Below, in pieces: positions 2,880 to 17,571 of a stretch of DNA of 35,037 bases. Source of the stretch: Acidimicrobiaceae bacterium (GTDB taxonomy: Bacteria > Actinomycetota > Acidimicrobiia > Acidimicrobiales > RAAP-2); contig CANGMP010000010.1 in NCBI GenBank assembly GCA_947455165.1, forward strand, positions 1 to 35,037. Reading direction: 5' to 3'. Under the pieces are notes generated by a model, which saw only the letters and a list, made by a program, of their open reading frames with translations, made no database searches and was not told where the DNA came from. Made by a program: the position numbers and the translations under genes. Position 1 is the stretch's first letter. Each line of letters starts with the position of its first letter.

Positions 2880-4853
2880 CTACAGCTTCAAGTCGTCAGC
2901 AATCTGGGCGGCGAACTTCACGCCCGCTCGCGGTGAACCGTCGTCCAGAACGCTCGCGAAACTTCCCGAAATCGCCAGGCGGCGGTCCAAGAACGCGTCG
3001 CTCGCAATCAGAACCTGGATGACATGCACACCGTCAGTGACCTCGGGCGCAATCGCCGCTCGAGGAAGATTTTCCCAGTGAGGGAGCGCTCGTTCCTGAA
3101 CCGCGACCAGGACTTTCTTAGAGTCTTCCAGCATGGCGTCGAGCCACGAAGCGGCACTGTCGGTAGGTATAGCTTCACCGTAGTGTTCGGCCGGCTGAAC
3201 ACCCCAAATTCTAGAGACGTTGTATGTCCGGTATTCGTGGGCCGGCGTAGACAGGTCGAGCGCGCGAACATACCTCTCGCCCAGCACCAGTTGAATTTCG
3301 GTCGGAACAATACGTCGAGTCGTCGGTTCGGCCAGGCCGTCGGACTGATAGCTCAGCTCGAGAACACGAGAACCGAGTGCGTCGTTAATGACGTCCAAGA
3401 AGCGGCTAGCTGGCGTATACACGGTCACCCCAACATCGGTGGCGTCATGAATTTTCGCAGACAGTGCGGCGCAGGTATCGCTGACAGATGTATCGAGACC
3501 CAGGCTCACCATCTGGGCCAACATGATTTGCACGTCCAAGACTTCAGACCACGTCAGTGGTGAGTCACCACCGAAAGCGTCGTGACTCGAACCGATCATC
3601 GGGACGTACATCGGATTGGCCTCGTCATCGAGGTCGCCGAACTCCACTGGCACGAGATACGACGTGTCGACCAAGGGGTCCCGGGCCATGATGGCCTTCG
3701 TGACATTTTCGGTGACGAATTCGATCGGCACGGAGAACTGCTCGGCCAATTCGCTGGCGTAAAGACCAGAACTGTTCAAGATTGCCGAGATCATTGAGAG
3801 CGTCTGCAGGAGCGCGTTGTCGTAAACGTCAAAGTCAGACGAAAGCTTGATCTTGGAGGCATCGAGGTTGACCTTGGGATTGACTACCTTGAGCCAACCC
3901 TTGAGGGTGGAGGCAAACTTGCGAGACGTTATTGCGGACACGTTCTGGGCATTGGTCACGAAGAACGCAATTGCGGCATCCTCGTTTTCGAAGCTCATGG
4001 TTACTTCGGTGGACTTCGCCGACGCCGTCGTAGCAACAACGGCGTCACCGGAGAGACTGGCGACGTAGCGAGCGAAGGAGTCTGAGGTCGTGAAGGAGAC
4101 CTCGGTCGCGTCTTGGTAACTCTGAGGCGTCCATGCTTTGGCCTGGTCCACCAATGCGGTACCCAGCTCAAAGACTTCGGCTGGGTCCTTGCTCACAAAC
4201 TTTGGCACAGACATGACACGATCCATCAAGAAGCCACGAATGTCGTTGCGGTCGACGTCATAACCAACGACGTAGCGACGGTTGCCCGAGATGACGAATC
4301 GCAGTGGAACAAAGGTGCGTGCTTCGGTCCCCTTACGGCGCCAGAAGCCGGGCTTGGCGAAATCAAAGTTGACGGCACGCTTTTGCTGCTTGGCCAATCC
4401 AAAAGCGGCCGCCTTGGCCCCAAAGCGACTTCCCGTCGCCCGCTTCATTGGCGTCGACTGGAGGAGACCATTGGGCCCGAAGGGTCGTCCAATTGAAGAG
4501 CGAAGCTCGAGGAGCAACTGGGATTCATCGGCGCTGAGACCAAGACCCGGCACCCATACGTGCGTCGGATCGATGGTGTATCGACCGGCACGTTCAATTA
4601 CTTCAACGCCGTTGGCCGCAAGGTCACCACAGTCGCGAAAGAACATTTGGCGATACGCCTGCACCGACGCTGCGTTGTAAGCCGGAAAGCGCTGAACCGT
4701 ACCATCGGAGTATTCGCGATCCTCGAGGAGCTGCTCGACAATCTGCTCCAGCGTCAGACCTTGTCGGTCACCGCTCGTCGAGCGCTGCAAGAGCAAGGCC
4801 AATAGGTTGCGCTGCCGTGAACGGCCTCCGTCACTCTTTGCCTTGCCCGCCAT
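2880..4853 (-). CDS. pafBC: Fused PafBC-type double HTH-WYL transcriptional regulator
   Basis: PafB and PafC form the actinobacterial activator of the LexA-independent DNA-damage response; in some lineages they are one polypeptide. This 657-aa protein has that double layout: a winged-HTH at about residues 10-115 ending in a typical ADESQLLLEL linker, a WYL-like module at about 180-225 (VPLRFVISGNRRYVVGYD), a second HTH at about 345-390 (LLQTLSMISAILN, then LYASELAEQF), and a second WYL module at about 496-550 (LELSYQSDG, then GERYVRALD). Its length is twice that of a single PafB or PafC. ATG 4853 has a good Shine-Dalgarno (GAGGAG). It is the first gene of a possible unit with the relaxase. 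The gene symbol follows architecture; the usual pup-proteasome neighbours are not in the window, so another paired WYL regulator is possible. Confidence 0.72.
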   Translation of the reverse strand: MAGKAKSDGGRSRQRNLLALLLQRSTSGDRQGLTLEQIVEQLLEDREYSDGTVQRFPAYNAASVQAYRQMFFRDCGDLAANGVEVIERAGRYTIDPTHVWVPGLGLSADESQLLLELRSSIGRPFGPNGLLQSTPMKRATGSRFGAKAAAFGLAKQQKRAVNFDFAKPGFWRRKGTEARTFVPLRFVISGNRRYVVGYDVDRNDIRGFLMDRVMSVPKFVSKDPAEVFELGTALVDQAKAWTPQSYQDATEVSFTTSDSFARYVASLSGDAVVATTASAKSTEVTMSFENEDAAIAFFVTNAQNVSAITSRKFASTLKGWLKVVNPKVNLDASKIKLSSDFDVYDNALLQTLSMISAILNSSGLYASELAEQFSVPIEFVTENVTKAIMARDPLVDTSYLVPVEFGDLDDEANPMYVPMIGSSHDAFGGDSPLTWSEVLDVQIMLAQMVSLGLDTSVSDTCAALSAKIHDATDVGVTVYTPASRFLDVINDALGSRVLELSYQSDGLAEPTTRRIVPTEIQLVLGERYVRALDLSTPAHEYRTYNVSRIWGVQPAEHYGEAIPTDSAASWLDAMLEDSKKVLVAVQERALPHWENLPRAAIAPEVTDGVHVIQVLIASDAFLDRRLAISGSFASVLDDGSPRAGVKFAAQIADDLKL

Positions 4854-12633: not shown

Positions 12634-13776
12634 TTACGAGGCGCTGGTACGTAAACGGCGCAGCTCGGCCTCCATAAAGGCGTCTAGATCGCCGTCGAGA
12701 ACCGACTCCACATTGCCGGTTTCGTGATCGGTGCGGTGGTCCTTTACGAGTTGGTAGGGCGCCTGGACGTAACTGCGAATCTGACTGCCCCAGGCGTTGT
12801 CGCCTCGCTCGCCCGAGATGGAGTCGAGTTGGGCCTTTTGTTCGGCCCGGGCCCGCTCGGCCAACTTGGACTCGAGAATCTGCATTGCGCGCGCACGGTT
12901 CTGGTGCTGACTTCGCTCGTTCTGACAGCTCACCACGATGCCGGTCGGCAGGTGAGTAATGCGAATCGCCGAGTCCGTCTTGTTGACGTGCTGGCCACCG
13001 GCGCCCGAGGAGCGGTAGGTGTCGACCCGCAGGTCCTTGTCCTCAATGGTCACTTCCCCACTGGTGTCGGTGACGAGGGGTGTGATTTCCACGCTGGCAA
13101 AGCTGGTCTGGCGGCGAGCCTGGGAGTCAAAGGGGCTGATGCGCACGAGGCGGTGCACGCCTCGCTCGGCCGAGAGCCAACCGAAGGCAAATCGCCCCTT
13201 CACGATGACCGTCGCTGACAAAATGCCGGCTTCTTGCCCCTCGGTAACTTCATCAACTTCAACGCCAAATCCGCGGCGCTCGGCCCAGCGTGAGTACATG
13301 CGTAGGAGCATTTCAGCCCAGTCCTGCGCATCGGTGCCCCCGGCACCCGCGTGAAACTCAACAATGGCGTCGCACTCGTCATACTGGCCGGACAACAAGC
13401 TCTGAAGCTCGAGGGTTTCGATGGCCGCAGTGATGTCGCCAACCATCGTCGTGAGTTCAGCAACGAGTGAACTGTCGCCCGCTCCGAGTGACTCGCGGGC
13501 CAGTTCCACCATGACTTCACCGTCGTCGAGCTGGGCGCTCAAGGCGTCGAACTCGTCGAGAGCCACCCCTGCGCGACCCAATTCGGTCGTCACTTCGCGG
13601 GCCCGATCTTGATCGTCCCAGAGGTTCGGATCGGCCGCCCGTTCGGTCAGGTCGGCGTGACGAGACCGCAGATCCGGAATCTTGAGATACTCCTCGGCTG
13701 CCCGCCAGCGCTTGGTGAGGTCCGCGAGGCTTGAAACGGCGTCTCGCAGTGCGCCTTCGGCCTTAGGGTCGGCCAT
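12634..13776 (-). CDS. prfB: Peptide chain release factor 2
   Basis: RF2 reads UGA and UAA and triggers peptidyl-tRNA hydrolysis on the ribosome. The 380-aa product has the GGQ catalytic motif in SSGAGGQHVNKTDSAIRI and the RF2-specific SPF recognition tripeptide in RISPFDSQ. The N-terminal PNLWDDQDRA helix region is also typical. The whole protein lies in one frame, so the in-frame UGA with +1 frameshift that regulates RF2 in Bacillus and E. coli is absent. ATG 13776 (M-A-D-P-K) lies 14 bp inside the secA 3' end in another frame, so translation is probably coupled to secA. The open frame continues further upstream only as a shadow of secA. Confidence 0.95.
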   Translation of the reverse strand: MADPKAEGALRDAVSSLADLTKRWRAAEEYLKIPDLRSRHADLTERAADPNLWDDQDRAREVTTELGRAGVALDEFDALSAQLDDGEVMVELARESLGAGDSSLVAELTTMVGDITAAIETLELQSLLSGQYDECDAIVEFHAGAGGTDAQDWAEMLLRMYSRWAERRGFGVEVDEVTEGQEAGILSATVIVKGRFAFGWLSAERGVHRLVRISPFDSQARRQTSFASVEITPLVTDTSGEVTIEDKDLRVDTYRSSGAGGQHVNKTDSAIRITHLPTGIVVSCQNERSQHQNRARAMQILESKLAERARAEQKAQLDSISGERGDNAWGSQIRSYVQAPYQLVKDHRTDHETGNVESVLDGDLDAFMEAELRRLRTSAS

Positions 13777-16429
13777 GGCACTGCTTGAACTTCTTGCCCG
13801 AACCGCAGTAGCACGGGTCGTTGCGACCGATCTTGGTCTTATCGGTGGCCGCGGCCTTGTGGTTGGGGCCGGCCGGGTTGGGCACGGAGCCGGAGGCGAC
13901 CTCGGGGGCGTCAACATTGGTCACCGCACCGGCGAGGGCATCTTGAGCCACAGGCTCGGCCATGGCCTCGATGTGGGTGATGTAGCGAACAAAGTCGTCG
14001 TCAACCGAGGTCAAGAGCTGCTCGAACATCGCGTAACCCTCGCGCTGCCACGCCACCAGCGGGTCCTGCTGGGCCAGGGCGCGCAGGTGAATTCCGTCGC
14101 GGAGGTGATCCATGTCGCTCAGGTGGTCACGCCAGCGCTGGTCAAGAATCTGCAGCATGACGTCGCGCTCGATGGCTGAAGCCATCTCGAGTCCACCCTG
14201 GAAGGCTTCGCACTTCTTTTCGTAGAAGGCCAGCGCGTCGCCAACGAGTAGCTCACGGAGATCTTCCTCGTCACCGCATGTGCGCAACTGCTCTTCGGTC
14301 AGCGTTGAGGGGTAGTAGCTCTGAACGGCCAGCACGATGGCGGGCACGTCCCACTCTTCTGCGTACGCGTTGCCGCAGAACGTGTCAACGACGCCACTGA
14401 GCTTTTCTTCGATCAGTTCAATCGCACGAGCGTGCAGATCTTCACCTTCGAGGATCTGCTGGCGACGGCCGTAGATGACCTTTCGCTGCTCATTCATCAC
14501 TTCGTCGTACTTGAGAACATCCTTACGAACTTCGGCGTTGCGACCCTCAACAGTGTTTTGGGCTCGCTCGATGGCCTTGGTGACCATCTTGGCTTCAATC
14601 GGTTCGTCATCGGGCATCGTGCGGTCCATGACCCAGCTGATGGCGCCGGTGGCAAACAGTCGCAACAGCTCGTCTTCGAGTGAGAGGTAAAAACGGGTGA
14701 CACCAGGGTCGCCCTGACGTCCACTTCGACCGCGGAGCTGATTGTCGATGCGGCGTGATTCGTGACGCTCGGTACCGAGAACGTAGAGACCACCGGCTTC
14801 GCGAACACGAATTGCCTCTTCGTCGCAGATGGGCTTCCACTTGGCCAGAGACTTTTCGAGCGCTGCGTCGAAGCCCTCATCGCCGGGGTTCAAGCCTTCG
14901 GCGCGTACGTCGCGAAGGGCCAGCCCTTCGGGGTTACCACCGAGGACGATGTCCACACCACGACCGGCCATGTTGGTCGCTACGGTGACTGCGCCGACTC
15001 GACCGGCCTGCGCGACGATTTCGGCTTCACGGAAGTGCTGCTTGGCGTTGAGCACTTCGTGGGCAATGCCGGCCTGCGCAAATGCGCGGGCCAAGAGCTC
15101 GGACTTTTCGACCGAGGCCGTTCCCAGCAGAATCGGCTGTCCGGCGTCGTGGCGTTCAATAACTTCAGCGACAATCGCCTGGAACTTGGCCGCTTCGGTC
15201 TTAAAGATGAGGTCGGCTCGGTCGTCGCGCTGCGGCGGACGATGAGTCGGGATCGGCACGACCGTCAAGCCGTACGTGGTACCAAACTCAGCCGCTTCGG
15301 TTTCGGCCGTACCGGTCATACCGGCCAACTTGTTGTAGAGACGGAAGTAGTTCTGCAGGGTGACGGTGGCCCATGTGTGGTTCTCGTCTTGGATGCGGAC
15401 GCGCTCCTTGGCTTCAACGGCCTGGTGGAGTCCGTCGTTCCAGCGACGTCCGTCCAGGGTGCGACCGGTGAACTCGTCAATGATCTTCACTTCACCGCCG
15501 TCAACGAGATAGTCCTTGTCACGGTGGAACAGCTCCTTGGCCCGTAAGGCCTGGTTGAGCTGGTGGACGTAGTTCGTCGAGACGGCGTCGTAGAGGTTGG
15601 TCACGCCGAGAGCGCGCTCGACCTTTTCGATACCTGACTCGGTCGGAATTACCGTCTTCTTCTCTTCGTCAACCTCGTAGTCCTTGTCACGCGTCAAAGT
15701 GCGCACGATCGAAGCGAACTGGTAATAGAGCTTGGTGACGTCATCGGCCGGACCCGAGATGATCAGCGGAGTGCGGGCCTCGTCGATGAGGATGGAGTCG
15801 ACTTCGTCGACGATGGCGAAGTTAAAGCCCCGCTGCACGCGCTGTTCGGCCTGGCGGGCCATGTTGTCGCGCAGGTAGTCAAAGCCGAGCTCGGTGTTCG
15901 TTCCGTACGTGACGTCACAGGCGTAGGCGGTCCGCTTGGCCTCAAAGTCTTCGATGTCGGGACCGACGCGACCGACCGTGATACCGAGCCAGCGGTGGAG
16001 TCGTCCCATCCACTCGGCGTCTCGCGCGGCCAGGTAGTCATTCACCGTGACGACGTGGACACCCTCGCCCGAAAGAGCGTTCAGGTAGACCGGGAGGGTC
16101 GAGACCAACGTCTTACCTTCACCGGTCTTCATTTCGGGAATCCAGCCGAAGTGCAGCGCCATGCCACCCATCAGCTGCACGTCGTAGTGGCGCTGCCCGA
16201 GCACGCGGGTAGAGGCCTCGCGCACGACGGCGAAGGCCTCGATCAAGAGGTCGTCCAGGGTTTCACCCTCGGCGAGGCGGGCCTTGAACTCGGTCGTCTT
16301 GGCCTGGAGTTGGGCGTCGGTCAGGGCGGCCATGTCGTCGGCCAGGGCGTTGATGGGGTCAACCAGTTCAGTCAACTGGCGGACTCGCTTGCCTTCACCG
16401 GCGCGAAGGACCTTGCTAAAGACACTCAT
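13763..16429 (-). CDS. secA: Preprotein translocase ATPase SecA
   Basis: SecA drives post-translational export through SecYEG. The 888-aa protein has the MKTGEGKT Walker A motif (about residues 100-107), the DEAD-like IVDEVDSILIDEARTPL, the long helical scaffold, and a C-terminal SEC-C zinc motif (GRNDPCYCGSGKKFKQCH) that contacts SecB-like partners or the ribosome in other species. It is one full-length copy. ATG 16429 follows family alignment. There is no Shine-Dalgarno, but TAGTTT lies 9 nt before the ATG, so the leader may be only 2-3 nt. Immediately upstream is the structured RNA at about 16455-16716 on the same strand. The prfB start lies inside the secA 3' end. Confidence 0.97.
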   Translation of the reverse strand: MSVFSKVLRAGEGKRVRQLTELVDPINALADDMAALTDAQLQAKTTEFKARLAEGETLDDLLIEAFAVVREASTRVLGQRHYDVQLMGGMALHFGWIPEMKTGEGKTLVSTLPVYLNALSGEGVHVVTVNDYLAARDAEWMGRLHRWLGITVGRVGPDIEDFEAKRTAYACDVTYGTNTELGFDYLRDNMARQAEQRVQRGFNFAIVDEVDSILIDEARTPLIISGPADDVTKLYYQFASIVRTLTRDKDYEVDEEKKTVIPTESGIEKVERALGVTNLYDAVSTNYVHQLNQALRAKELFHRDKDYLVDGGEVKIIDEFTGRTLDGRRWNDGLHQAVEAKERVRIQDENHTWATVTLQNYFRLYNKLAGMTGTAETEAAEFGTTYGLTVVPIPTHRPPQRDDRADLIFKTEAAKFQAIVAEVIERHDAGQPILLGTASVEKSELLARAFAQAGIAHEVLNAKQHFREAEIVAQAGRVGAVTVATNMAGRGVDIVLGGNPEGLALRDVRAEGLNPGDEGFDAALEKSLAKWKPICDEEAIRVREAGGLYVLGTERHESRRIDNQLRGRSGRQGDPGVTRFYLSLEDELLRLFATGAISWVMDRTMPDDEPIEAKMVTKAIERAQNTVEGRNAEVRKDVLKYDEVMNEQRKVIYGRRQQILEGEDLHARAIELIEEKLSGVVDTFCGNAYAEEWDVPAIVLAVQSYYPSTLTEEQLRTCGDEEDLRELLVGDALAFYEKKCEAFQGGLEMASAIERDVMLQILDQRWRDHLSDMDHLRDGIHLRALAQQDPLVAWQREGYAMFEQLLTSVDDDFVRYITHIEAMAEPVAQDALAGAVTNVDAPEVASGSVPNPAGPNHKAAATDKTKIGRNDPCYCGSGKKFKQCHGRP

Positions 16430-16438
16430 AGTGCTACC

Positions 16439-16444
16439 AAACTA
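16439..16444 (-). promoter_or_regulatory. Candidate -10 box of secA (TAGTTT)
   Basis: The minus strand has TAGTTT, 9 nt, then the secA ATG, which allows a near-leaderless transcript independent of the upstream RNA. Confidence 0.4.
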
Positions 16445-16454
16445 CCCTTTTAGC

Positions 16455-16716
16455 CCTTCGGTGTGGTTGGCTACGGGCAGCTGACCTGGTCTTTGACCCC
16501 ACACTCGCCTGCGGTGGTGTCCGAGTGGAGTTCGGGCAGCCAAGGCTCTCTCGAACTCGATTCACTCACTTCACCAACTCTCGTCGCGACCACTTTGGTA
16601 GCGACGAGGCAGGGCTTACTTCTAAACCGCGCCATGCTCAGCGTCGACAAGACGCCTTACGTGGGTCGTTTCGCCCGCGGCTGGCATCGACTTGCAACCA
16701 CAGCCTGCCCGTAGCC
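16455..16716 (-). ncRNA. Candidate structured RNA upstream of secA
   Basis: The 308-bp gap between the wbbL-like stop and secA has no credible ORF but is dense in secondary structure. Hairpins (plus coordinates) are: 16502-16507 with 16522-16527; 16528-16534 with 16552-16558; 16580-16587 with 16601-16608, which encloses a further ACCA/TGGT stem; and 16641-16645 with 16651-16655. Two long-range pairs join the ends: 16705-16716 with 16469-16480 (12 bp, perfect) and 16696-16702 with 16462-16468 (7 bp, perfect). They lie in crossing order. The minus strand is favoured because TAGACT at 16723-16728 lies exactly 6 nt before 16716, the first base of the 12-bp element. The position upstream of secA-prfB-ftsEX is where hpf/raiA often lies in other bacteria, so a raiA-motif RNA is one possibility; I could not confirm the class. 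The 3' end is approximate. Confidence 0.65.
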
Positions 16717-16722
16717 GGGCCA

Positions 16723-16728
16723 AGTCTA
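16723..16728 (-). promoter_or_regulatory. -10 box for the structured RNA (TAGACT)
   Basis: The minus strand has TAGACT, 6 nt (TGGCCC), then the first G of the long-range pairing element at 16716. The spacing equals that of the leaderless genes in this window. No recognisable -35 is present. Confidence 0.45.
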
Positions 16729-16737
16729 AGCGAGCCC

Positions 16738-17571
16738 CTACCGGGGGCGGGGGGCGAGGGCCGACATCACGGCGTATCGAGTGCCGAGCAGCAGAGCCGC
16801 CAGCGGCAAGAGGAGTCGTCGGGCCCCTCGGGCCGTGCGGGCCTCAAAACGCAATGCGCTCTGGTGATGCGCCTTGACCATGGCCCGTGGGGCGCGTGAA
16901 CGCGACACACCTTCGATGTGGGTGACCACGGCTTCCGGGACGACGGCTACCTCCCAACCGGCCCGGGCGAGGCGCCAGCACAGATCCATGTCCTCGGCGA
17001 ACATGAAGTAGCGCTCGTCAAAGCCACCGACTCGCTGAAAGGCCTCGGTGCGCACGACGAAGAAGGCACCGCTCACCCAGTCGACCTGGCCATTACGACC
17101 CGGCGAGCGGTAGCGCTTGGTCGCTGGGTTGTTCGCCCACAGCGGCGCCAAAACGGCGTGGAGTCCGGCCAGGACGATGTTTGGAAAGATACGCAGTGAG
17201 GGATACGTCGCACCCGAACCATCGACGATGGTCGGCCCCGCAATGCCGACCTGGGGATGCGTGGCCAGGTGATGTACGAGCGCGGCCACGGCCCCGCGGT
17301 GGACCACGATGTCGGGGTTGGAGAGAATCAAAAACTCGGGCGCACCGGCAAAGGCCACTCCCCGATTCATACCCCGGCCGTACCCGAGGTTCATCTCGGT
17401 ATCGACGAGGCGAACGGGTCGATCGCCTAAGACCGACGCGCTCGAGCCAGTCGTGCTGTTGTCCACGACCACCAGCGACTCGACGCCGTCGGCAATGAGC
17501 GAATCAACACATCCGAGCAGGTCCTGCTCGGCGTGAAAGTCCACGACCACGGCGGCCACTGAGTAGCTCAC
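16738..17571 (-). CDS. WbbL-like GT2 glycosyltransferase (probable rhamnosyltransferase)
   Basis: Family-2 transferases of this type move a sugar from a nucleotide donor; WbbL in mycobacteria adds rhamnose to GlcNAc-PP-polyprenol. The 277-aa protein has the GT-A N-terminus (VAAVVVDFHAEQDLLGCVDSL), VVVDNSTTGSS, NLGYGRGMNRG, the NPD metal motif (LILSNPDI) and GGFDERYFMFAEDMDLCWR. A hydrophobic stretch near the C-terminus (LLLPLAALLLG) may be membrane-associated. GTG 17571 overlaps the rmlD stop as GTGA, so longer upstream readings are shadows of rmlD. The rmlD-wbbL order matches mycobacteria and supports dTDP-rhamnose as donor, although the acceptor in this organism is unknown. Confidence 0.82.
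   Translation of the reverse strand: MSYSVAAVVVDFHAEQDLLGCVDSLIADGVESLVVVDNSTTGSSASVLGDRPVRLVDTEMNLGYGRGMNRGVAFAGAPEFLILSNPDIVVHRGAVAALVHHLATHPQVGIAGPTIVDGSGATYPSLRIFPNIVLAGLHAVLAPLWANNPATKRYRSPGRNGQVDWVSGAFFVVRTEAFQRVGGFDERYFMFAEDMDLCWRLARAGWEVAVVPEAVVTHIEGVSRSRAPRAMVKAHHQSALRFEARTARGARRLLLPLAALLLGTRYAVMSALAPRPR

Follow-up and report, generated by a model that had tools for sequence, protein, structure and literature searches.

The window, that is, the whole 35,037-nucleotide stretch of Acidimicrobiaceae DNA that was analysed, carries a raiA-family (RF03072, ModT) RNA gene at positions 16469-16716 of the minus strand, an extent that runs from P1 to P1 and is based on a cmscan match and on compensatory changes. 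The RNA lies between a family-2 glycosyltransferase gene, which stops at 16738, and secA (13763-16429), which starts at 16429, and all three are read from the minus strand; in relatives, hpf and then secA are found downstream of the RNA. The preliminary description had taken this gap to be non-coding, which agrees with the gene boundaries, and had proposed that it holds either a raiA-motif RNA or an unclassified RNA. The former proposal is borne out by the match to Rfam RF03072 at 16472-16713 (minus strand), with 157.6 bits against a gathering threshold of 101.3, and the same match excludes the latter. It covers the model in full (1-209 of 209) with an E-value of 1e-39 in the whole window, and the loop consensus letters of RF03072 are matched in the cmscan alignment and invariant in relatives. 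Membership in RF03072 is strongly supported, and the locus is a new member of the known raiA RNA family, in an Acidimicrobiaceae genome. The genome (1.54 Mb, 94 contigs, 89.5% complete) contains a single RF03072 copy, and the named relatives whose FtsX is 90% identical to its own are MAGs of Acidimicrobiaceae/Actinomycetota. Elsewhere in the window, at 268-2855, a T4SS coupling-protein gene (PF02534, plus strand) adjoins a TrwC-type relaxase gene (PF08751, minus strand), a pair of the conjugation type within a small genome.

Fold and covariation of the RNA

The predicted folding energy is -121.9 kcal/mol (z = -6.1), and none of 200 shuffled sequences reached so low a value. Covariation in homologues, which had been suggested as a check, was assessed at 45 core pairs in 60 relatives that are mutually below about 86% identity, and the compensatory changes found across them support the fold. 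Core pairs are formed in 98.9% of 2682 cells. Two-sided changes occur at 21 core pairs, versus 9.9 in shuffles, and the covariation score is 0.270 versus 0.121, with 0 of 500 shuffles as high, a control that is inflated by the relatedness of the sequences. When the partners are slid by 1-3 columns, pairing falls to 29-51%, although this contrast is inflated as well, because the window sequence served as the template for the structure. Two-sided changes at 12 P1, 5 P5 and 3 P6 pairs would be hard to obtain otherwise.

All elements of the fold lie on the minus strand. The exact 12-bp complementarity noticed earlier between 16705-16716 and 16469-16480 corresponds to the 5' and 3' strands of P1, and all 12 pairs have changed on both sides in 2-34 sequences each; these changes are weakest at the innermost pair, which is frequently unpaired in the 60 relatives. 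The outer three P1 pairs (16714-16716/16469-16471) are outside the Rfam match, yet they covary. The 5' strand of inner P1 (P1b/P1c, 16696-16703) pairs with 16481-16483 and 16487-16491; it is paired in all 60 sequences and almost invariant. The P3 stem-loop (16665-16691) consists of P3a (16688-16691/16665-16668) and P3b (16683-16685/16673-16675), and its loop contributes one half of the 7-bp pseudoknot pk-1 (16676-16682), which pairs with the pk-loop half at 16625-16631, the register of both P3 and pk-1 being taken from a cryo-EM description (PMC11751092). Pairing in pk-1 reaches 99.8%, with a G-C/A-U exchange at the last pair (30 versus 29 sequences) and one-sided changes at three pairs. Two-sided changes are present at 5 of the 6 pairs of the P5 hairpin (16640-16656; 16651-16656/16640-16645) and at 3 of the 5 pairs of P6, whose 5' strand (16609-16613) pairs with 16508-16512. 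Taken helix by helix, P1, P3, P5 and P6 are paired in 97-100% of cells.

About 80 columns, many of them in loops, are invariant over the 60 sequences, and the core hardly varies at all, which leaves little for covariation to show about pk-2 and the non-canonical core contacts. The P7 hairpin (16580-16608) and the P8 arm together with the 3' strand of P6 (16508-16579) are parts of the predicted fold that vary among relatives, P7 in length and sequence, whereas the P8 arm is short or missing in some congeners. Some congeners (L022, L023, L162, L172, L183) have RNAs of about 175 nt that are devoid of most of the P7/P8 arm, which therefore looks dispensable.

A further complementarity of 7 bp, between 16696-16702 and 16462-16468, had been put forward as part of the structure. 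It is exact in the window, but it does not hold as structure: a single one of 82 genus members has AACCACA downstream, and the invariant partners of this strand in the conserved fold are 16487-16491 (for 16696-16700) and 16482-16483 (for 16701-16702). As a candidate switch pairing it was rejected, being conserved in 1 of 82 genus linkers and attributable to chance.

Promoters of the RNA and of secA

The TAGACT -10 box at 16723-16728 (minus strand) indeed ends 6 nt before 16716, near which the transcript is expected to start. At this place a TANNNT motif is found in 85/85 genus members and 42/42 other members of the family, compared with a shuffle mean of 2.9 of 85 and with 0-1 at the adjoining positions; these counts, like those for secA, come from related sequences and are not independent. 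The -10 box alone is conserved, with no conserved -35 element before the RNA in the related sequences, and a scan for two-box sigma-70 promoters found nothing. A second box, TAGTTT at 16439-16444 (minus strand), lies 15 nt before the ATG of secA. Here, TANNNT is located at -17 to -14 in 80/82 genus members and at -17 to -12 in 41/41 other family members (shuffle mean 3.2), which amounts to 121 of 123 sequences in which the motif follows the RNA. Furthermore, the motif is also visible where hpf separates the RNA from secA and where the RNA is absent.

The distance from the RNA to secA is 43-55 nt in 82 of 87 genus loci, and apart from the secA -10 box this linker is nearly unconserved. The spacing between the box and the ATG suggests, in light of what is generally known of actinobacterial promoters, that the secA mRNA is leaderless or nearly so. 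With a conserved -10 motif before the RNA and another before secA, the RNA probably forms a transcription unit of its own, and the support for its separate transcription is good but indirect. No terminator, in the form of a hairpin followed by a U-run, was found on the minus strand in the 43-55 nt linker, so read-through from the RNA into secA is possible.

Loss of hpf and lack of detectable c-di-GMP enzymes

The suggestion that the RNA persists here without the raiA gene is supported: PF02482 is unmatched in this genome (E <= 1; assembly 89.5% complete). Similarly, PF02482 and a profile built from the Hpf of relatives reveal a genuine hpf in 0 of 99 genus genomes, one apparent chimera (G366) aside, and PF16321 is absent from the genus. 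Within the genus, the relatives' profile matches only G366, which is itself a row of that profile, and one marginal sequence with a stop. The possibility that the genus encodes a diverged Hpf at another site was considered and rejected, as the best weak PF02482 match, the one examined, looks like trigger factor from its sequence. The RNA is present in 92 of the 99 genomes, and all misses fall in bins that are 68-84% complete.

The hpf of G366 was rejected as a true exception. There, a genus-type 5' P1 strand is joined to a foreign remainder of the RNA, and because the two P1 strands mismatch, the contig is probably misassembled within the conserved RNA. On that contig (C116; L188, L321), the RNA is flanked on one side by RmlD and glycosyltransferase genes resembling those of the window's genus, and on the opposite side by hpf and miaA. 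The conserved RNA core appears to have caused the chimeric join.

In other families of the order, hpf often follows the RNA; in a genome outside the family (G138), for instance, the RNA at 4279-4529 and hpf at 3949-4230 are on the same strand. Within the window's family, five genera (g4, g155, g159, g160, g161) show the order RNA, hpf, secA, while in 14 genera, including that of the window, secA follows the RNA with no hpf between them. Two hpf genes read in the former genera encode short proteins of 121 and 127 aa with S30AE only; the G138 product has 235 aa and its C-terminal part resembles a dimerisation domain. By this comparison, RNA-hpf-secA is the older order and RNA-secA the derived one. 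A SecA tree places one hpf loss inside the family, on a branch (SH-aLRT 93, which is short of the starred level) leading to 14 of the sampled genera, and across the whole sample it implies four hpf changes and one RNA loss. The latter concerns the clade of g3 and g152 (L220-L228; 8 genomes), in which hpf and the raiA RNA are both lost and the secA -10 motif is kept. These genera live without the RNA, so not every member of the family requires it.

Several other arrangements were observed along the way. Some genera (g153, g154, g156, g157, and part of g4 and g155) encode a protein of 475-491 aa (L111:760-2235, L114:1015-2442) that combines SnoaL-like, diverged S30AE and two S30AE_C domains, an unusual Hpf-like architecture; the window's genus yielded no such protein. 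Two f13 genomes lacking a detected hpf (L013, L016) have the raiA RNA upstream of miaA, as read from the translation, rather than of hpf-secA. In other families of the order (L004, L020, L021, L011, L027, L030), a NarL-type response-regulator gene is located downstream of the RNA, also downstream of hpf where that is present, and several times before secA.

A study in C. difficile connects ModT with c-di-GMP and raises the question of how general this connection is (PMC11706538). GGDEF domains were matched in 141 of 172 family genomes, and they are unmatched in the window's genome (G000) and in 18 congeners, all of which carry the RNA. EAL is also unmatched in 17 of these 19, namely the window's genome and 16 congeners, and the other two (G126 and G440) keep EAL matches; both domains were matched in two positive genomes run alongside (G141 and G208). 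Absence here means that no domains are detectable from sequence, as distinct from biochemistry. Eight of the 17 genomes are at least 96% complete, which makes incompleteness alone an unlikely cause. Given that the RNA is kept without detectable GGDEF and EAL, c-di-GMP control of the kind reported for C. difficile ModT is unlikely to be its conserved function.

Likely role and relation to known systems

The reading that we favour, with a probability of roughly 0.8, is that the locus encodes a stand-alone, trans-acting structured RNA of the raiA family. A promoter at the TAGACT box would start a transcript at about 16716, which would fold into a compact raiA structure centred on pk-1, with P1 as its closing stem. 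The RNA would be expressed with a 3' end near 16469, generated by processing or by unrecognised termination, and it might act in trans on a growth-phase transition by binding a ligand, a protein or another RNA, a role modelled on the one proposed for ModT in clostridia. In ancestral genomes the RNA would have preceded hpf, and transcription of hpf probably began at, or ran through, the promoter of the RNA; hpf would later have been deleted while the RNA stayed. With a leaderless-type promoter of its own, secA would not need the RNA as a leader.

That the RNA controls secA, or formerly hpf-secA, in cis as a leader or riboswitch is improbable, even though it stands directly before secA at a nearly constant distance, no terminator is seen between the two, and Rfam classes RF03072 as a cis-regulatory riboswitch. 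The conserved -10 motif between the RNA and the secA start argues against it, as does the persistence of that motif when hpf intervenes or the RNA is gone. A secA riboswitch would have secA transcribed through the RNA and would contain an expression platform, and the sequence points to neither: the sole candidate switch pairing is unconserved. In addition, the RNA is near miaA instead in the f13 relatives, and clostridial ModT works in trans (PMC11706538).

Less probable still is that the RNA is a decaying, functionless remnant of a lost hpf leader. Such decay would fit the disappearance of its usual neighbour from the clade and of the RNA itself from a sister clade, but it is hard to reconcile with the invariant columns, the stems that vary in compensating pairs and the universal -10 box of the genus, or with the SecA tree, which implies long retention of the RNA after one hpf loss. 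The low-scoring RNAs of two genomes (G382 and G388) were rejected as decaying copies, because both contain N gaps and the low scores reflect assembly. The idea that the gap codes for a small opposite-strand protein, in an 83-aa frame at 16463-16714, can practically be dismissed. The frame is open in the window, and antisense frames are often open in the GC-rich relatives; however, the conserved reading frame that the preliminary description had named as evidence against an RNA is not seen, as stops interrupt every frame across the RNA in 23 of 87 genus sequences, RNA lengths differ modulo 3 within the genus, and the variation tracks RNA pairs, not codons.

The raiA/ModT RNAs are among the most widespread structured bacterial RNAs whose activity remains to be found. 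Their name and neighbours hint at ribosome hibernation, and the best-studied mutant points to c-di-GMP. Retention of the RNA, its promoter and its fold after the loss of hpf and, in some species, without detectable c-di-GMP enzymes would make both links lineage-specific, which would narrow the search for the real target. We consider it fairly likely that the conserved core function of raiA/ModT RNA needs neither Hpf nor c-di-GMP signalling. If so, those freshwater and peat Acidimicrobiaceae in which both protein systems are lost and the RNA is kept represent a natural experiment in which the core job can be told apart from the clostridial phenotypes, and the RNA-less g3 and g152 clade provides a contrast in which to look for genes associated with the RNA. 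That the RNA has become separated in evolution from Hpf and c-di-GMP enzymes alike seems to be new: in the literature searched, the scope of which excluded most subscription journals, the raiA motif and Acidimicrobiia are not mentioned together, and a search on ModT and c-di-GMP with the same scope returned no additional study.

With cis-regulatory riboswitches, the type to which Rfam assigns RF03072, the locus shares a compact, conserved RNA directly upstream on the same strand. It differs from them in that secA has its own conserved -10 box beyond the RNA, neither a terminator nor a conserved alternative pairing is seen, and published clostridial copies of RF03072 work in trans. Clostridial ModT was indeed complemented in trans, and a cis riboswitch role was ruled out there (PMC11706538). 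The long isoform of clostridial ModT also has a short unconserved 3' stretch after the RNA, as here, but it ends in an intrinsic terminator (PMC11706538), whereas none was found before secA. Unlike in C. difficile, GGDEF and EAL proteins are undetectable in this genome and in 16 sister genomes. For raiA RNAs at large, raiA (66%) and comFC (74%) are common but not required neighbours, and synteny is no good guide, C. difficile likewise having no raiA there (PMC11706538); the present locus adjoins neither gene. The Acidimicrobiaceae host, the lack of an Hpf protein, secA directly downstream, three extra P1 pairs and the lack of a visible terminator further set it apart. The C. acetobutylicum raiA RNA, with the cryo-EM models 9CXF and 9ELY, is among the closest known counterparts. 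It has been described from cryo-EM as a compact monomer (PMC11751092, PMC12286853). What the window's RNA shares with raiA RNA/ModT is the full-length match, the helices P1, P3, pk-1, P5 and P6 with covariation or invariance, the conserved loop sequences and a promoter of its own, represented here by the conserved -10 motif.
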